64,000 nucleotides of DNA from Hydrogenophaga sp. (lineage in GTDB: Bacteria; Pseudomonadota; Gammaproteobacteria; Burkholderiales; Burkholderiaceae_C), in assembly GCA_016741995.1 (NCBI GenBank), contig JACVCO010000011.1, positions 62,001 through 126,000 of the forward strand, given 5' to 3'. The notes below the pieces were generated by a model that worked only from the letters and a program-made list of their open reading frames with translations, ran no database searches and had not been told where the DNA came from. Positions 52,138 through 63,318 of the stretch are shown one piece after another. Positions within the stretch are counted from its first letter, which is position 1, and every line of letters starts with the position of its first letter. Both the position numbers and the translations under genes were made by a program.

Positions 52138-52608
52138 TCAGCGCCGCGCCGTCAACCGCCCATACAGCCACCCACCCAACACCGCGCCCGCCGCCATCGT
52201 CAACAAACCCGGCCCGTGCCGCGTGGCGTCGATGAACACCGGCATCGGGGCCGCGGCGTCCACCGCGCGCACCGCGGCCACCATGCCCACGCCGGCCGCC
52301 AGCGCCAGCAGCGTGGTACGCCAGCCCGGCCAGCGCCGGCCCAGCCAGTGGCCCACGGTGAGCGCGGGCAGCCAGCCCGCCGCCAGAATGCCCGCGTACA
52401 AGAGCGCGAAGCCCAGCAGGTCTTGCCCGGTGGTGCGGGCGCGTACGGCCAGCGGAATGTCCACCCCCAGCGCGGCCAGGGCCTGCAGGTTCCACTGCGT
52501 CTGCACCACCGAACCCCAGGCCGCGGCCAGCAGCCACGCCAACAACAATGGCACCAGGTGGCGCGCCCAGCCGCGGTGTGCAGAATCGCTTGCGTTGCTG
52601 TACTTCAT
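52138..52608 (-). CDS. Small integral membrane protein, unknown
   Basis: 156 residues with about four hydrophobic helices and short loops (first helix HLVPLLLAWLLAAAWG, last helix GLLTMAAGAVLGGWLYGRL). No family recognised. The ATG at 52608 sits 12 bases from the divergent sugar dehydrogenase start, so the two promoters must overlap the opposite coding sequences. Residues upstream of this start are not membrane-like and are probably untranslated. Confidence 0.7.
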   Translation of the reverse strand: MKYSNASDSAHRGWARHLVPLLLAWLLAAAWGSVVQTQWNLQALAALGVDIPLAVRARTTGQDLLGFALLYAGILAAGWLPALTVGHWLGRRWPGWRTTLLALAAGVGMVAAVRAVDAAAPMPVFIDATRHGPGLLTMAAGAVLGGWLYGRLTARR

Positions 52609-52620
52609 ATCGATCACGTC

Positions 52621-53727
52621 ATGGCCTACCGGGCAGCCTTTATAGCGTTTGCACTCGCGTTGTTGATGCCGGCCCACGCCGCCGGCTACCGCATCGACAC
52701 CGTGGCCAGCGGGCTCGAGCACCCGTGGTCGCTGGCCTTTCTGCCCGGTGGCCGAATGCTGGTGACCGAACGCCCCGGCCGCCTGCGCCTCATCGAACCC
52801 GGCACGGACGGCAAGCCCCAGTTGCGCCCCGAACCCATGGGCGGCGTGCCCGCGGTGCTGGCGCGCGGGCAGGCGGGCCTGTTCGACGTGGTGGTGGACC
52901 CGGCCTTCGACACCACCGGCCATGTGCTCTTGTCCTTCGCGCACGGCACACCGGGCGCGAACCACCTGCGCGTGGTGCGCGCGCGCTTCGATGGAAAGCA
53001 ACTGCAGGCGGTGCAACCCGTCTTCACGTCACAACCGGCCAAGGCCGACACGCAGCACTTCGGTGGCCGCATGGCCTGGCTGCCCGACGGCAGCGTGCTC
53101 ATCGGCATGGGCGACGGCAACCTCGACCGCACCGACGCGCAACGCCTGCACACCCACCTGGGCAAGCTGCTGCGCATCCACCCCGACGGCAGCGTGCCCG
53201 CCGACAACCCCTTCACCACCCGCCCCGGCGCGCGGCCCGAGATCTACAGCCACGGGCACCGCAACCCGCAAGGGCTGGTCGTCGTCAACGGCGTGCCCTA
53301 CGCGCACGAACACGGCTCGCGCGGCGGCGACGAACTCAACCGCATCCGCCCCGGCGCCAACTACGGCTGGCCCATCACCACCGGCGGCATCGACTACACC
53401 TACGCCCGCATCACGCCCTACCGCAGCCTGCCCGGCATCGAACCCCCGCTGGTGGAATGGACCCCCTCCATCGCCCCAGCCGGCCTCACCTGGTACGACG
53501 GCGCGCTGTTCCCCGCCTGGCGCGGCAGCCTGTTCGTGGCGGCACTCAAGGAACGCAGCGTGCGCCGCGTGCCGCTGGCGAACGGTGTGCCCGGGCCGCA
53601 GGAGCTGCTGTTCACCGAACTCGGTGAGCGGATTCGTGATGTGCGGGCGGGGCCGGATGGGGCGCTGTACTTGCTGACGGACAGTGCGCAGGGGCGGGTG
53701 CTGCGGGTGGTGGCGGAGGGGCGTTGA
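52621..53727 (+). CDS. PQQ-dependent sugar (aldose) dehydrogenase, YliI/Asd-like
   Basis: 368 residues. Signal peptide to about 20 (AFIAFALALLMPAHA), then a six-bladed propeller opening ASGLEHPWSLAFLPGGRMLVTERPGRLRL. It carries the GSDH-family strands DVVVDPAFDTTGHVLLSF, HFGGRMAWLPDGSVLIGMGD and SHGHRNPQGLVV. Oxidises aldose sugars in the periplasm with PQQ as cofactor, although some relatives lack strong activity. PQQ biosynthesis genes are not in this window. It is the last typical high-GC gene before the island. Confidence 0.93.
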   Translation: MAYRAAFIAFALALLMPAHAAGYRIDTVASGLEHPWSLAFLPGGRMLVTERPGRLRLIEPGTDGKPQLRPEPMGGVPAVLARGQAGLFDVVVDPAFDTTGHVLLSFAHGTPGANHLRVVRARFDGKQLQAVQPVFTSQPAKADTQHFGGRMAWLPDGSVLIGMGDGNLDRTDAQRLHTHLGKLLRIHPDGSVPADNPFTTRPGARPEIYSHGHRNPQGLVVVNGVPYAHEHGSRGGDELNRIRPGANYGWPITTGGIDYTYARITPYRSLPGIEPPLVEWTPSIAPAGLTWYDGALFPAWRGSLFVAALKERSVRRVPLANGVPGPQELLFTELGERIRDVRAGPDGALYLLTDSAQGRVLRVVAEGR

Positions 53728-54282
53728 GTGGGGTGCTGATCGGACAGCCGCTCATGTGAAGCGGTATTCGCCTATCGAGTGACGGCATTGCAGCGGCTGC
53801 CGTCAGTCGCTCGTTGGATGCGAATGTCAGCAAGTTGCTGCTCTGCGTCATTCCAATGAGAGCTAGTGCAAATTGATGGACCTTGCTCGCGCTTGGCGGG
53901 TGGCGCCGAGCGCCTGCGAAGCCCCCTCGATCGATATCGTGAACAAAGCGTTGAAAGTGAGCGGTACGGAGTGCCGGGTCCAGTTTTCGCCGGTTTTTCT
54001 GTGCCGCTTTCCGGAGCGTTTCCCAAATTCCCGCGTAGCTGAAGAGCGCGCTAGACCCGAGTAGAGCGCGCAGCCACGTACAAGGGTTCCCGGCGCAGCC
54101 ATTGGTCCAGCGACGACTTGCCGACTGCTATGGGCGTTCTGGGTTCTTGCACTCAAAAACACCTTCAAGGCGTGACGGCGTCGCTGTGTCAATCACATTG
54201 GCGATTTGCGCAGCTAACTTTTGGCTACCATGAAGACAATGGTCTCCGGCAGTCGGAGACTGCTAGTCCATGGAGAAAAGCG
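53728..54282. other. Gene-poor left flank of low-GC island
   Basis: 555 bases with no gene that I can support. Short ORFs on both strands lack ribosome sites and look composite. It contains a perfect 7-bp dyad GACGGCA / TGCCGTC (53781-53804, ten-base loop) and, at its right end, a second dyad described separately. Composition shifts from the neighbouring high-GC genes at about 53740. No integrase, insertion-sequence end or tRNA was recognised. Confidence 0.7.
54242..54260. promoter_or_regulatory. Perfect dyad in the leader of the island's first gene
   Basis: GTCTCCG-GCAGT-CGGAGAC, 7-bp arms with a five-base centre, ends 22 bases before the ATG at 54283. It could be an operator or an RNA hairpin just upstream of the Shine-Dalgarno sequence (GGAGAAAA at 54271). 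The first island protein carries DNA-binding-like regions, so self-regulation is possible. Confidence 0.45.
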
Positions 54283-55515
54283 ATGAGCGATAAGAAGGGT
54301 TCCAGCGCGTCTAATTCCGGGCTTGATCCGAAGAAACCTTGGGTGATGCCATCCGCGGCGTCCAAGGAAACCCCAATTGCGCAAAGGGCACCGGCAGCAA
54401 AAAAAACCGCGGCCAAGAAAGCCCCCGCCAAGAAAATGCCTGTCAAAAAGACGGTCGCCGCAAAGAAGGGCAAAGCTCAGAAGGCGGAAGCGGCAAAAAG
54501 CAAACGCACGTTTCCACAGCGATCGTTGGAGGACTGCTACAAGCTTGCGCACGCATTGCGCGAGTACAACGGAGGCAACTCGTGGACCCCCCAGAACTTG
54601 GCCGAATCGATGGGGCAAAGCGCGAGTAGCAGCGGCTTCTTTTACTTGACTGCTGCGTCACGAGACTATGGCCTGACAACCGGCACACGCGCGGCGACAA
54701 AAATCGAACTGTCCACGCTAGGTCGCGAAGCTGTGTATCCCAAGGCTTCGGGTGATGAACTCAAGGCGTTGATGGCTGCCTTCCGAAATATCGAGCTATT
54801 CGCCAAAGTCTACGACTACTACAACGGCGGCAATCTGCCCGAAGTGCAGTATCTGAAGAACACTTTGAAGACGGAGTGGGGTGTTGACGAGGCTGATCAG
54901 GATGACTTCTACGATCTGTTCCAGAGAAATCTTGCATTCCTGAAGTCTAAAGGTGATCTTCGGTCAGTAAGCTCGGGTGCAGTCGGCACGGCCAAAGCAA
55001 GTGGCGCGTCAATTGTGCTTGGGGAGTCCGCTAAGGCTGGAAGCTTGGTCGCGTTCATTGCGATGCCGTTCTCCGAAAAGACCACGGCATACAAGCAAGG
55101 CTATTTCGATGAAGTACTCAAGCACCTGATCACGCCTGCCGCTAGTCGCGCAAATTTCAACTCGCGCACGGCGAAGAAGGCAGGGAGCGAAGTCATTCAG
55201 TCTACTATCGTGAACGACTTGTTCAGTGCAGACTTGGTGATCGTCGACCTTACTGAGCACAACCCGAATGTCCTGTTTGAGCTTGGTATGCGCATTGCAT
55301 TCAATAAGCCGGTGTGCTTGATTCGGGCCAAGGGAACGGCACCGATCTTCGATATTGACCACATGCTGCGTGTTTACGATTACAACCCGTCAATGTGGCC
55401 GTCAACGCTTGAGGTAGACATTCCCGGTCTCTCCGATCACATCGCGAAGACGTGGGAAGGTAGGGACGAGAATCGTTCATATCTGACGATGCTCCGAGAC
55501 AATAAGTCGGAGTAG
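54283..55515 (+). CDS. Island protein A: H1-like tail, winged-helix-like middle, deoxyribosyltransferase/TIR-like C-terminus
   Basis: 410 residues, not assigned to a known gene. Residues 36-75 are a Lys/Ala/Pro-rich stretch (PAAKKTAAKKAPAKKMPVKK) like bacterial histone-H1-like tails. Residues 78-225 form a helical domain with two similar halves containing YNGGN (at 95-99 and 180-184), perhaps winged helices. Residues 254-370 have VAFIAMPF, DLVIVDLTEHNPNVLFELGM and NKPVCLI, the pattern of nucleoside-deoxyribosyltransferase-like and related TIR-like nucleotide-binding folds seen as effectors in bacterial conflict systems. Start chosen by GGAGAAAA seven bases upstream. GC and codon use are lower than in the flanks, indicating transfer. 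The N-terminal half suggests nucleic-acid contact, the C-terminal half nucleotide processing or sensing. Confidence 0.72.
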   Translation: MSDKKGSSASNSGLDPKKPWVMPSAASKETPIAQRAPAAKKTAAKKAPAKKMPVKKTVAAKKGKAQKAEAAKSKRTFPQRSLEDCYKLAHALREYNGGNSWTPQNLAESMGQSASSSGFFYLTAASRDYGLTTGTRAATKIELSTLGREAVYPKASGDELKALMAAFRNIELFAKVYDYYNGGNLPEVQYLKNTLKTEWGVDEADQDDFYDLFQRNLAFLKSKGDLRSVSSGAVGTAKASGASIVLGESAKAGSLVAFIAMPFSEKTTAYKQGYFDEVLKHLITPAASRANFNSRTAKKAGSEVIQSTIVNDLFSADLVIVDLTEHNPNVLFELGMRIAFNKPVCLIRAKGTAPIFDIDHMLRVYDYNPSMWPSTLEVDIPGLSDHIAKTWEGRDENRSYLTMLRDNKSE

Positions 55516-55574
55516 TTCTGCGCGTGCTGCAAATTTCTCGAACAAGGCTTGAAAGATGACCAGGAGGGTAGGGA

Positions 55575-55745
55575 ATGGGGTCCACGAAACATCTGCTGGG
55601 GTCGCGTGAGTGGCGGGCCGACGGTAAACTTTTCGGCGATACGCCGATTCGTCTATTTGAGACCGGGGCGACGCCGATGCACTTGCCCGGTAGTCGGCAA
55701 GAGGGCAACAGCGTCATGGTTTGCAGTTCATGTTGGACGCGGTAG
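55575..55745 (+). CDS. Small 56-aa ORF inside the island
   Basis: ATG preceded by AGGAGG with exactly seven bases between, the strongest ribosome site in the island. The product begins MGSTKHLLGSREWRADGK and ends MVCSSCWTR, with a CxxC pair that could bind metal. It lies in the 279-base gap between proteins A and B. The alternative reading frame over this stretch, continuous with protein B, is rich in Arg, Cys and Trp and looks non-coding. No homologue known to me. It might be an antitoxin-like or regulatory peptide; this is inference. Confidence 0.5.
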   Translation: MGSTKHLLGSREWRADGKLFGDTPIRLFETGATPMHLPGSRQEGNSVMVCSSCWTR

Positions 55746-55794
55746 GCAAGGTGATAACTGTCCGCACCAGTCAGACCAAGGCATCCGCGAGACA

Positions 55795-57351
55795 ATGAGA
55801 ACACTCTATGCAGTTTCCATCGGGCTTTCAGTTCGCGACGATGCCCTTAAGGCGTGTGATCTTCTGTCGACTTGGATTGACGACTGGTACAAGCGCCGAG
55901 GCATCGTCTTCTGCGCTCCGCCGCTGGACGCGGCTGGAGCTTCCTCTCACGAACCAGCCGATGGCCACATGTTCCGTTGTGCCGTTCGCGCGTCCAGTCG
56001 GCAGCCTGCAAAGAGCCTTGTGGAAATCGATTGGCACTATCCAGACGACTATGACAAGGGGCTGGCCTGGAACGTCCAGATTCGAATGCTCCTCAGTGCT
56101 GCCGGCGCCGCGATCACGCTGCAACTCGGCGTGGTAGGAACACAGTTCTCTATTCAGCCCGCAAGCATCAAGCTTGGGCCACCGAGAATTGTTAGAGAGC
56201 TCACTGCACTCGGCTCGGCTACCCTGGGGGGATTTCCGTATACAAGCCATCCGCAGATGGTGCGCGCGGAGACGCTTGAGCCGATTGTTGACGCGCTGCT
56301 GGACGTCAAGCGCCCGTTCCCCATCATCCTGGTGTCGCACGACTTGACGACAGAACGCCCGTTTGTCGATGTAGATCGCCTCGCGGCAGGGCTGGCAGGT
56401 CTCATGAGGGTCTACGAACTGGCGGACCGATGGGCAGCATTCCGGCTCACAGACGAACTCGGCAAACCACTCTCCTGCTATGCAGGTGCTGTGCGAATCT
56501 ATTGGCCGGGCTTGTCTCTTGTTGACGACCCGTTCAAGCATCCAGCTTGGATGCCTTGGCGCCTCAAGCAGCTAGGCCATACAGACGAGCTTGTGTCTCA
56601 CCTGTTTGCCACCGGTGCGGAAGCTACGGCATACAGGTTCTTAGAACCTCTCGACCTGGTGGAGTTGCGCGGCGAGATTGACGAAGACGAGCGTCAGGCG
56701 CGCCGCAATGAATCATTCAGTGACGCCGATAAATTGCTTGAGCAACTGATTGATGCGGAAGACACCCTCAAGGATGTACGCCAGCAGCTGGCGCTTTCTC
56801 AAACCGAGAATCAAACGCTGCGTCAAAACCTAGATGCACTTCTCGGGGCGCCCACCGCCGCGCGAGCAAACCTTCCGTCCGGACCTGCTGAGGAGGATCA
56901 GTTGGACGATCCGGAGAGCGTCGCGGATGCGGTTGCTCTTGTTCGAGATCAGACCAAGCATTTGGTATTTCTTGAGTCAGCGGTTGAATCCGCTTGTGAG
57001 TCGCCTTACCGAACGCCATCGCGAGCGCTCCAAGCCCTTCAAGCCATCGACGAGGTCGCCGGTCTCTGGGTCGATGGCCTGTCGGGAGGAAAGACACCCG
57101 GGCCACTGAAGACGCTCTTCCGCCAGCGTGGCTTTGAGTACAAGGACGACATCTCGCAAACTTCTCGCGGCAAGTGGGGCACCGAGTACGAAGCAAAGTA
57201 CAAGGGTCAGACGATAGATATATCGCCTCACATCACTATTGGCGCCAAGCAAGCGGACACCTGCCTCTCGGTTCACATGCACTGGGACAAAGAGTCCAAG
57301 AAAGTAGTCATCGCTCACGTTGGTCGACACAAGACGAACACCAAGACGTGA
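55795..57351 (+). CDS. Island protein B: large protein of unknown function with central coiled coil
   Basis: 518 residues, family not recognised. Residues 1-290 form an alpha/beta region with PIILVSHDL (176-184), VDVDRLAAGLAGLMRVYEL (191-209) and LSCYAGAVRIYWPG (226-239), reminiscent of uncharacterised proteins of bacterial conflict loci that I have seen in other phyla. Residues 295-350 are a charged coiled coil. Residues 395-518 are a separate domain ending HMHWDKESKKVVIAHVGRHK, which looks like a compact beta-rich or nuclease/RelE-like fold. ATG at 55795 is chosen because upstream in-frame sequence is not protein-like; ribosome site is weak. Lower GC, as for protein A. Same strand and order suggest a shared operon. 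Confidence 0.65.
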   Translation: MRTLYAVSIGLSVRDDALKACDLLSTWIDDWYKRRGIVFCAPPLDAAGASSHEPADGHMFRCAVRASSRQPAKSLVEIDWHYPDDYDKGLAWNVQIRMLLSAAGAAITLQLGVVGTQFSIQPASIKLGPPRIVRELTALGSATLGGFPYTSHPQMVRAETLEPIVDALLDVKRPFPIILVSHDLTTERPFVDVDRLAAGLAGLMRVYELADRWAAFRLTDELGKPLSCYAGAVRIYWPGLSLVDDPFKHPAWMPWRLKQLGHTDELVSHLFATGAEATAYRFLEPLDLVELRGEIDEDERQARRNESFSDADKLLEQLIDAEDTLKDVRQQLALSQTENQTLRQNLDALLGAPTAARANLPSGPAEEDQLDDPESVADAVALVRDQTKHLVFLESAVESACESPYRTPSRALQALQAIDEVAGLWVDGLSGGKTPGPLKTLFRQRGFEYKDDISQTSRGKWGTEYEAKYKGQTIDISPHITIGAKQADTCLSVHMHWDKESKKVVIAHVGRHKTNTKT

Positions 57352-57678
57352 GTCGCACTCAACGGGAGCACATGCCCGCAATGCAGCACCGAAATTTGGT
57401 TCGCTAGCCCTTGTTGCCGCTTGCGATCCAACGCTCTTACCGAAGATGGCGAAGGGCATGTCGGTCTCGACCTGACCATGCCCAGGACGAGCAGCGTCCA
57501 GATAAACCCAGTCCGCCAGCCGCAGCCCAGTACACCCGCAAAGAGAGCAAAACAGCACAAGGTGCGCCAACGAATACCTAGGGGACAGTCGCTATATTCC
57601 CTTCGTACTTCCGCAACCAGTCTTCAGAGGTCACTCACCGCAAGACACGCACCCCATCCTCGCCCGAAGACGATTCCC
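57352..57678. other. Gene-poor right flank of low-GC island
   Basis: 327 bases without a supported gene. The minus strand has overlapping open frames with hydrophobic stretches (for example LVLFCSLCGCTGLRLADWVY) but no ribosome site and no family match; it might be a decayed gene. The composition returns to genome-typical near 57650. No direct repeat matching the left flank was found by eye. Confidence 0.65.
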
Positions 57679-58206
57679 TCACCTCTCATCATCCGGGTTG
57701 TCCCTCGCCAACGGCGCCGCCCCCGCCAGCAGCTCATCCGCCTTCCCCTGCACCATCCCCACCATGCGGTCCAGCGCAGCGCGCTCGTCCGCAGACAGCC
57801 CCGCCACCAGCGCCTGGTTGATCGCGCGGATGCGGGGGAACAGGTCGCCGTGCACGCGGTGGCCTTCGTCGCTCAGGTACATCTGCACCTCGCGCCTGTC
57901 GTTGGGTTTGGGGCGGCGTTCGATGAGTTTCTTGTCGGCCAGCAGCGTTAACGTGCGCGATGTGCGGGCGCGGTCGAGCATGGCGCGTTCGGCCAGTTCG
58001 GACGACAGCACGCCTTCGTTCTCCGCCAGGAAAGAAAGCACGCGCCATTCGCGCCGCGTGAGGCCGTGCAGGCTTTCGCAGAGTTGCACCACCTGGCGCC
58101 CGGCGGTGATGTGGATGCGGTAGAGCCGGTAGAGCAGGAACTCGGCCTGGTGCTCGGGGTGGGCCAGCGTGTCGCGCGGATCGCGGGGTCGGGTGTCGGC
58201 AGGCAT
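57679..58206 (-). CDS. MarR family transcriptional regulator
   Basis: 175 residues. Winged helix with SLHGLTRREWRVLSFLAEN, ELAERAMLDRARTSRTLTLL as the recognition helix region and the wing RRPKPNDRREVQMYLSDEG. MarR dimers usually repress a divergent operon and release on binding an aromatic or phenolic ligand. Start at 58206 is preceded by GGGGGA. The divergent gene is a Bug receptor that begins a sulfatase/SulP cluster, the likely target. Confidence 0.92.
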   Translation of the reverse strand: MPADTRPRDPRDTLAHPEHQAEFLLYRLYRIHITAGRQVVQLCESLHGLTRREWRVLSFLAENEGVLSSELAERAMLDRARTSRTLTLLADKKLIERRPKPNDRREVQMYLSDEGHRVHGDLFPRIRAINQALVAGLSADERAALDRMVGMVQGKADELLAGAAPLARDNPDDER

Positions 58207-58221
58207 GAGGGTTATCCCCCG

Positions 58222-58247
58222 CAATGATTGATTTCTGCAATCCATTG
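58222..58247. promoter_or_regulatory. Nested dyad in MarR/Bug divergent gap, candidate MarR operator
   Basis: GATTG-atttctg-CAATC forms a 5-bp dyad directly flanked by a second pair CAAT / ATTG, giving an extended near-palindrome of about 26 bases. It sits 16 bases from the MarR start and 66 bases from the Bug receptor start. Size and symmetry suit a MarR dimer. Confidence 0.5.
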
Positions 58248-61647: not shown

Positions 61648-63318
61648 ATGACCCGCTGGCAACGCCTGTTCCCGTTCCTGCAATGGCCGCGCCCCGACGC
61701 GGCCTTGTTGCGTGGCGAGGCGCTCGCCGGCCTCACGGTCGGGTTGATGGTGATTCCGCAGGGCGTGGCCTACGCCGCGCTCGCGGGCATGCCCCTGGTC
61801 ACGGGCATTTACGCGGCGCTGCTGCCGGCGCTCATCGCGGTGCTGTTCTCGGCCTCGCCGCGCCTGGGGGTGGGGCCCACCGCCCTCACCTGCCTGCTGG
61901 TGGGCAGTTCGCTTGCGCCGCTGGCCACGCCGGGCAGTGCCGAATGGGTGCAGCTCGCGGTGTGGCTGGCGCTGCTGTCGGGCCTGCTGCAGGTGCTACT
62001 GGGTGCGGTGCGCTACGGCTGGTTGCTCAACCTCGTCAACTCGCCGGTGCTCATGGCCTTCACGCAGGGCGCGGCGGTGCTGATCATCGGCTCGCAATCG
62101 CCCGCGCTGCTGGGCTTTGCCAACGGCACCGCGCTGTTCGCGTGGCAGGGCTGGCACCCGGCGTCCATGGCGTTCGGCCTGGGCGCGCTGGTGGCGCTGG
62201 TGGCGGCGCGCCGGCTGCGGCCGGGTTTGCCTTCAGTGCTGGTGCTGGTGCTCGCGAGCGCGGGGCTGGCCCGCCTGCTGGGCTTCGAGGCCGGGGGCGG
62301 TGCCGTCATCGGCACGCTGCCGCAGGGCCTGCCCGCGCTGGTGCTGCCCGGCTGGCCGGGCTGGGAAACGCTGAGTGCGCTGGTGCTGCCCACGCTCATG
62401 ATCACGCTGGTGAGTTTTCTGGAAACGGCCAGCAGCGCCAAGGTGGACAACGGCCGCCGCGGCGTGCGCTGGAACCAGGACCAGGACCTCATCGGCCAGG
62501 GCCTGGCCAAGATCGCGTCGGGCTTCACGGGCGCCATGCCCACCAGCTCGTCGTTCTCGCGCTCGGCGCTCAACCTGTACGCGGGCGCACAGACCGGTTG
62601 GGCCTCGGTGTTCACGGTGGGCGTGGTGCTGCTGGCGCTGCTGCTGGCCATGCCGCTGCTGCACCACGTGCCGCTGGCGGTGCTCGCGGCCATCGTGGTG
62701 CTGCCGATCTGGGGGCTCATCAAGCCGCGCGCGTTCACGCAGCTGTGGCGCCTCTCGCGCGTGGAGGCGCTGATCGCCGGCGCCACCTTCGCCATCACGC
62801 TGCTGGCCGCGCCGCGGCTGTACTGGGGCGTGCTCGCGGGCGTGGTGATGGCGCTCACGCACTTCCTCTACCTGCGCCTGCACCCGCGCATCATCGAAGT
62901 GGGCCTGCACCCCGACGGCAGCCTGCGCGACCGCCACCTGTGGCAACTGCCGCCGCTGGCACCGAACCTTTACGCGCTGCGCATGGACGCTGCGCTCGAC
63001 TTCGCCACCGCGAGCGGCTTCGAGCGCGCCATCGCCGAGCACCTGCAAGAGCACCCCGGCACCGAAGGCGTGATGCTGATCGCGCACCCGATCAACTGGA
63101 TCGATGCCACCGGCGCCGAGACCTTCGGCCGCGTGCGCGAACAACTCGACGACCGCCGCATCCACCTGCACCTGGTGGGCATCAAGCTGCCGGTGGAGAC
63201 GGTGCTGCGGCAAGCCGGCCACCTGGACGCGAGTGAGCGCCTGCACCTGTACCGCACCGAGACGGAAGCCTTGCAGGCGCTGAACACCACACCACCGGCG
63301 CCCACCGACACCCACTGA
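61648..63318 (+). CDS. SulP family sulfate/anion transporter with STAS domain
   Basis: 556 residues. About eleven to twelve transmembrane helices with VGLMVIPQGVAYAALAGMP near the N-terminus and TGAMPTSSSFSRSALN mid-protein, both SulP landmarks, then a C-terminal STAS domain (about 430-540) with GVMLIAHPINWIDATGAETF. Moves sulfate, bicarbonate or dicarboxylate. Following a sulfatase, it could export freed sulfate or import the sulfated substrate; a bicarbonate role is also possible. 28 bases from the sulfatase stop. Confidence 0.92.
   Translation: MTRWQRLFPFLQWPRPDAALLRGEALAGLTVGLMVIPQGVAYAALAGMPLVTGIYAALLPALIAVLFSASPRLGVGPTALTCLLVGSSLAPLATPGSAEWVQLAVWLALLSGLLQVLLGAVRYGWLLNLVNSPVLMAFTQGAAVLIIGSQSPALLGFANGTALFAWQGWHPASMAFGLGALVALVAARRLRPGLPSVLVLVLASAGLARLLGFEAGGGAVIGTLPQGLPALVLPGWPGWETLSALVLPTLMITLVSFLETASSAKVDNGRRGVRWNQDQDLIGQGLAKIASGFTGAMPTSSSFSRSALNLYAGAQTGWASVFTVGVVLLALLLAMPLLHHVPLAVLAAIVVLPIWGLIKPRAFTQLWRLSRVEALIAGATFAITLLAAPRLYWGVLAGVVMALTHFLYLRLHPRIIEVGLHPDGSLRDRHLWQLPPLAPNLYALRMDAALDFATASGFERAIAEHLQEHPGTEGVMLIAHPINWIDATGAETFGRVREQLDDRRIHLHLVGIKLPVETVLRQAGHLDASERLHLYRTETEALQALNTTPPAPTDTH

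Follow-up and report, generated by a model that had tools for sequence, protein, structure and literature searches.

An acquired-looking, low-G+C island in Hydrogenophaga carries two candidate anti-phage genes that may be mostly independent

The island and its surroundings

We analysed a 64,000-nucleotide stretch of DNA from Hydrogenophaga sp. (assembly GCA_016741995.1, contig JACVCO010000011.1, forward-strand positions 62,001 to 126,000), hereafter the window, in which an island of low G+C content at positions 53,728–57,678 is occupied by two large open reading frames (ORFs) on one strand, genes A and B. On balance, comparison of their sequences makes it probable that this is an acquired island with two mostly independent single-gene anti-phage candidates. 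The source genome is an assembly of 29 contigs (3.57 Mb, 82% complete), and the ORFs are simple calls by script with unchecked start codons, the likely starts being given below together with the other features.

54283..55515, forward strand: gene A (likely start ATG 54283, 410 aa), a basic tail, an N-domain and a C-terminal domain like nucleoside 2-deoxyribosyltransferases (NDT) and TIR domains
54283..54507, forward strand: A residues 1–75, lysine/alanine-rich tail with 21 lysine or arginine and 4 aspartate or glutamate residues
54499..54978, forward strand: A residues 73–232, N-domain defined by profile and common to 23 collected proteins
55045..55497, forward strand: A residues ~255–405, Nuc_deoxyrib_tr/TIR-like domain with the motif NPNVLFEL and Glu333 (codon 55279–55281)
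55795..57351, forward strand: gene B (likely start ATG 55795, 518 aa), HEC-07 (Hma-embedded candidate) candidate defence protein (PDLC04161, E 1.2e-38)
56620..56910, forward strand: B residues ~276–372, coiled-coil-like linker with weak matches to mostly coiled-coil chains
57037..57348, forward strand: B residues ~415–518, C-terminal domain, with His479, Gly483 and His512 invariant in 12 aligned members
53720..57685, no strand: island as delimited at each end by the point where homology to sister genomes stops
52570..53727, forward strand: glucose/sorbosone dehydrogenase (GSDH), left neighbour (PF07995, 5.1e-112)
57679..58245, reverse strand: MarR-family regulator, right neighbour (PF12802, 7.9e-17)
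55575..55745, forward strand: 56-aa ORF between A and B, with no support as a gene; no library search was made with it

The island has a G+C content of 56.5%, compared with a mean of 69.3% (standard deviation 1.5, minimum 65.5%) in 521 windows of the same length outside it (3,951 bases each, overlapping and hence not independent), and so lies about 8 standard deviations lower. Its left edge is sharp, with the G+C fraction passing through 0.735, 0.665 and 0.57 in 200-base steps from 53,401 to 54,000, and the right edge, where it rises from 0.585 to 0.66 in steps of the same size, lies at about 57,600. Island DNA extends for 555 and 327 bases outside A and B, respectively, and G+C at third codon positions is 64% in A and 63% in B. 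The low-G+C island of the preliminary description of this DNA is thus real and, by its appearance, acquired accessory DNA; alignment to sister genomes ends near 53,720 and 57,685, in agreement with this. A tRNA search of the window found none, the search for terminal repeats gave poor ones only, and a close DNA copy sought on plasmids yielded a single 160-base match at 70%. No transposase was seen by eye among the ORFs, the family scans having covered A and B only. An Rfam scan gave no family reaching its gathering score and a simple sigma-70 scan gave no promoter-like site (mean of 1.5 in shuffles).

For comparison with sister genomes, the MarR protein was searched against 40 genomes of the genus and nine of the best loci were fetched. 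In three of these loci (L089–L091), homology on the MarR side starts at 57,685–57,686, and in the other six it starts further in. Four loci (L093, L094, L096 and L097) have a BCCT transporter directly beside MarR, with aligned ends 340–532 bases apart, and different ORFs adjoin MarR in the remaining five. Profile searches for B, the N-domain and the NDT-like domain found no match in any of the nine. In all six loci fetched for the dehydrogenase block (52,142–53,719), that block lacks the other flanks of the window. A search for an empty site flanked by the sugar dehydrogenase and MarR genes had been suggested as a check: A and B are absent from the nine sister loci, but no clean empty site joins the two flanking genes. 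We infer that the site is variable and that the A–B island is one among several inserts.

The earlier account would have been contradicted by orthologues of both genes in all close relatives; neither A with its effector nor full-length B was found in the 39 other genomes of the genus. Full-length B occurs in one of the 40 genomes, the source genome itself; the C-terminal domain of B alone is found in three others, and two have a weak match near positions 309–390. The N-domain is present in four, the source genome and three others that lack an effector by motif, with one strong match (G208, 276 aa) and two weaker ones.

Gene A: a basic tail, a putative sensor and a glycosidase-like domain

The earlier view of A, in which a basic tail precedes a nucleotide-processing-like domain, is supported. 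The C-terminal part matches Nuc_deoxyrib_tr (PF05014) at E = 2.6e-5, a PADLOC TIR effector model at 3.4e-5 and PHROG 3634, a family of unknown function, at 3.9e-20. A profile of this domain built from seven relatives matches 13 sequences of solved structures (PDB) at E values of 0.0024–0.46, of which 12 are DNPH1/Rcl-type N-hydrolases and one is a nucleoside 2-deoxyribosyltransferase. Glu333, within the NPNVLFEL motif, is kept in all seven aligned domains and aligns with the ELG of DNPH1, and we take the glutamate at this position to be catalytic in DNPH1 and TIR enzymes. A conserved glutamate is likewise described as catalytic in DUF4062 and TIR NADases in passages of a 2026 preprint (PMC13174449), and a title in the reference list of PMC3710099 names Glu98 as the nucleophile of an NDT. 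Among annotated phage records, 53 of 50,697 match A at E = 0.01, the 20 listed ones all through the C-terminal domain; a viral-contig scan with A gave no match.

The N-domain has no match over a curated cut-off in the library scans made, the best being DUF7226 (0.002) and DUF5343 (0.026), each for one relative, and QatB (0.14) for A itself, and no solved structure falls under E = 0.04 for either the N-domain or B. It is probably a winged-helix-like domain and a putative sensor. DUF5343 was tried as the identity of the N-domain and rejected, a profile comparison with two of its members giving 0.3% and lending the winged-helix assignment no support.

A true histone-like protein (H1-like HC2) was also considered for A and rejected, as the HC2-type matches of the tail score under the curated cut-offs (17.7 versus 40 bits and 22.8 versus 135 bits). 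Elsewhere in the source genome, a repeat stretch (G000:C27:17124-17374, loci L002–L005) resembles the DNA of the lysine-rich tail and is perhaps an H1-like gene.

One N-domain with exchanged C-terminal domains across the A family

The N-domain profile gathered 23 distinct proteins which, by motif and hand label, comprise five with an NDT-like effector (the window gene and those of L117, L144, L145 and L148), eight with a TIR domain of the Cap12/Pycsar type and ten with neither. Pfam confirms PF10137 in all five TIR-type relatives scanned (1.7e-15 to 1.3e-18); of the others, L118 was assigned by PADLOC TIR models and two by motif. The scripted motif labels cover loci of 6 kb or more, L145, L146, L168 and L169 being shorter. 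For these counts, the window gene, which appears truncated as L098 and to which the script gave the label 'none', was set to NDT by hand for the tree, L145 ends at a contig end, and L146 (797 aa) is counted as having neither on the part of the protein examined. In the tree, the eight TIR members form one clade (support 99/99) and the placement of the NDT members is unsettled. The C-terminal domain has thus been exchanged within the A family. Combination of one N-domain with two types of enzyme domain is typical of the sensor modules of bacterial immune systems, and a sensor common to two effector types offers a direct route to asking what the N-domain detects.

Over up to 35 residues ahead of the N-domain, net charge ranges from +2 to +13 among the 13 effector-bearing proteins and from −3 to +3 among the ten others, so that a basic tail tends to accompany an effector; this comparison is post hoc and between related proteins, with ranges that overlap at +2 to +3 and several short tails.

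Neighbours of A-family genes were scanned with PADLOC for five genes at four loci, and both of those at L161 gave defence-type matches, to a methyltransferase and to a GajA/OLD-type protein. At that locus (L161:4528-9648), an A-type gene with basic tail and NDT-like domain precedes a short AAA/OLD-like ORF, after which comes the methyltransferase-like gene. Two A-family proteins of the Cap12/Pycsar TIR type (L155:5438-8332 and L157:7944-10343), from two different families, adjoin a gene for a ribonucleotide reductase small subunit.

Gene B: a diverged HEC-07 protein

Scanned as a 600-aa ORF starting at 55549, B matches four PADLOC HEC-07 models, the best (PDLC04161, positions 138–551 of 553) nearly to the profile end and the three others at 2.1e-15 to 9.2e-7. 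By these profiles, B, which had been described as a multi-domain orphan, is a diverged member of HEC-07, a candidate defence family of PADLOC-DB v2. Its identity is 40–44% to three Burkholderiales relatives and 19–27% to the other eight aligned, and the relatives at L049 and L149 match HEC-07 models almost end to end. The linker has weak matches throughout, the best at E = 0.045 (from the best 60 of 102 matches listed), and the C-terminal domain has no match in Pfam or PDB. A RelE/HigB-like fold for this domain was tried and rejected on a profile comparison of 0.7% (three controls at 0.2%, self at 100%).

A C-terminal domain of the B type also occurs in L152, L153, L163 and L164 behind other N-termini, to which the B profile has no match, and since it recurs in this way, the C-terminal domain of B may be an effector. 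As an observation beyond the window, the HEC-07 C-terminal domain of these loci (L152:8704-9816 and L153:8834-11419 included), found in three same-genus genomes among others, looks like an exchangeable defence module. Several HEC-07 relatives match the C-termini of NsnC in this domain, and no NsnC match is listed for B itself. NsnC is a component of Menshen. Passages of PMC10952713 on Menshen mention DUF262 and an OLD nuclease and do not name NsnC.

Relatives of B occur on two IMG/VR contigs, one of which (L117) has a terminase gene, and in a mobile defence island. The block at L066:2606-19272 comprises a KfrA-type gene, IetS (2.7e-281), a weakly trypsin-like gene, HEC-07, WYL and three further genes that have no Pfam or PADLOC match over cut-offs. 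It is 99.95% identical to L067 across 16,667 bases with unlike flanks, the two genomes being those of Pelomonas aquatica and a groundwater Burkholderiales metagenome-assembled genome, and L068 is 94–97% identical in pieces. The L066/L067/L068 block is thus a mobile defence island with a three-gene set that lacks a family assignment. The relatives of B therefore provide phage-borne and island-borne copies of a candidate family for which we found no paper naming HEC-07. The defence context seen for HEC-07 consists of one relative group by IetS and, in the window, of A as the sole defence-like neighbour found. A viral scan with the L049-type HEC-07 and the initial search of genome contigs with B gave nothing. 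A small ORF downstream of a Variovorax HEC-07 gene (L041:12249-12548) looks, by eye, like a piece of the HEC-07 N-terminal half.

Proposed mechanism and comparison with known systems

Two genes of the conflict or defence type had been predicted in the island, and the HEC-07 match of B and the NDT/TIR-like domain of A agree with this. We propose that the N-domain of A would sense a sign of infection, be it a phage protein or nucleic acid, while the basic tail may keep the protein on nucleic acid and A might oligomerise. The NDT/TIR-like domain would then, via Glu333, cleave an N-glycosidic bond, most likely of NAD+, and the infected cell would halt before phage release. A is thus most likely a one-protein sensor-executor that cuts a glycosidic bond in NAD+ or in a nucleotide. 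For B, a separate role as another defence gene is likely, and in its product a coiled-coil-like stretch would link the N-terminal half to the C-terminal domain.

The closest parallels share parts of this arrangement. According to PMC3710099, the AbiJ-NTD1–5 domains sit at the N-terminus of Abi proteins in fusions with toxins that include TIR and NDT, and effector exchange behind a common N-terminal domain was already proposed there in 2013. A and its relatives resemble these proteins in joining one N-terminal domain family to differing toxin domains, TIR and NDT included, but differ in that no HEPN domain was found in them and A has a basic tail in front; here, the exchange concerns an N-domain without an AbiJ-NTD match, none of these families being among the Pfam matches listed for A or its relatives, obtained with a Pfam copy whose coverage of all five is unconfirmed. 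In Swarozyc, which PMC13174449 describes as an antiphage protein, a TIR-like NADase with distant similarity to NDT is accompanied by a helix-turn-helix/winged auxiliary domain, and the latter binds the phage portal. Swarozyc thus resembles A in uniting a TIR/NDT-like enzyme domain with a conserved glutamate and an auxiliary domain in a single protein, whereas A has a basic tail and, according to the scans made, an N-domain of another family; a Pfam scan lists no DUF4062 match for A, the HMMER filters discarding most matches over ~0.1. Cap12/Pycsar TIR effectors (PF10137; PADLOC PDC-S35) are borne by A relatives that share its tail and N-domain, but A itself bears an NDT-like domain and its direct neighbours (B and GSDH) are not cyclases. 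DNPH1/Rcl and the nucleoside 2-deoxyribosyltransferases belong by profile to the superfamily of the A C-terminal domain, with the glutamate aligned, although the match is weak and A has two added regions.

Several observations weigh against the proposed reading of the two genes. The Nuc_deoxyrib_tr match of A lies under the Pfam gathering cut-off (24.8 versus 28.8 bits), and an effector is missing by motif in the ten N-domain proteins mentioned above. In the PADLOC scan of A-family neighbours, the L117 neighbour gave a marginal HmaA match (0.0092) and two others gave none, and the remaining neighbours, read by eye, look mostly ordinary. For B, no match was found to annotated phage records and two viral scans for its near group gave nothing. 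HEC-07 is named in no paper that our literature search found, so that the defence role of B rests on the PADLOC listing; parts of PMC12988326 report, citing a preprint, that several Hma-embedded candidates, including HEC-06, are antiviral.

Substrate of A

NAD+ is favoured as the substrate because relatives of A carry the Cap12/Pycsar TIR and because of the report on Swarozyc. A less probable alternative, to which we nevertheless give some weight, is that A defends through an effector acting on deoxynucleotides, like DNPH1, or on DNA bases. DNPH1/Rcl proteins are the best solved relatives of the C-terminal domain, the basic tail would fit DNA, and the NDT domains of Abi proteins are proposed, in the available passages of PMC3710099, to strip bases from DNA; the ribonucleotide reductase gene beside two A-family proteins would also fit, though these have the other effector. 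Against this, the same N-domain bears the Cap12/Pycsar TIR in relatives, also behind a basic tail, and PMC13174449 reports NADase activity for DUF4062, which likewise has distant similarity to NDT.

Do A and B form one system?

The preliminary description had treated A and B as one module. If they were a two-component system, one sensing and the other executing, they would travel together, and they are indeed adjacent on one strand in the window. However, an N-domain gene lies near B at only one of the 17 other full-length B loci, and B at one of the 18 other N-domain loci, the same locus (L117) in both cases; the remaining 16 and 17, respectively, lack the partner. These counts cover loci of at least 6 kb with differing flank lengths and exclude the window's own locus; shorter loci left out include L120, a 3.3-kb contig with full-length B, and, for the N-domain, L145, L146, L168 and L169. 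L043, the same place as L066, is also left out, and L066–L068, copies of one island, are counted as three. Regular co-occurrence was therefore not found, and an obligate A–B pair is unlikely; the two may occasionally act as partners. The broader surveys agree with this: among 399 genomes of the order, B is found in 18 and the N-domain in 11, and the two with both besides the source genome (G430 and G565) have weak B matches on other contigs, while in 299 genomes of the family one other (G177) matches both single proteins, on different contigs.

The pattern observed is thus largely the scattered, independent occurrence that the earlier account had named as contrary to a module, apart from one striking case. 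On the phage contig L117, a gene of the A architecture lies 1.8 kb from the HEC-07 gene, compared with about 0.001 A–B pairs expected under uniform placement for 20 loci (about 0.0009 for 17). By its similarity, this gene is a real relative of A (28% identity over 318 residues by BLASTP, 1e-26), and it is found at 3.8e-20 by an N-domain profile from which the L117 and window sequences were excluded. The two genes are, however, on opposite strands with small genes between, those in the window are 279 bases apart, and the clustering of defence genes means that uniform placement understates chance pairing. We consider a two-component system unlikely. A serine recombinase accompanies the HEC-07 and A-type genes inside 5.3 kb of the same contig (L117:8001-13297).

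In a bolder and less probable reading, A would belong to an unnamed single-protein immune receptor family, in which a basic-tailed N-terminal sensor is combined with exchangeable NDT-like or Cap12/Pycsar TIR effectors acting as NAD/nucleotide glycosidases and which, on phages and in some islands, would act jointly with HEC-07. The least likely explanation is a non-defence one, in which A would regulate by binding DNA, its nucleotide-binding domain being degenerate, and B would be cargo of unspecified role: the tail composition is like that of H1-like proteins, another such repeat stretch exists in the source genome and the C-terminal domain of B lacks library matches, but the glutamate and its motif are invariant in the compared C-terminal domains, relatives of A carry TIR effector domains, and B has its HEC-07 listing and relatives in phage-contig and IetS contexts.

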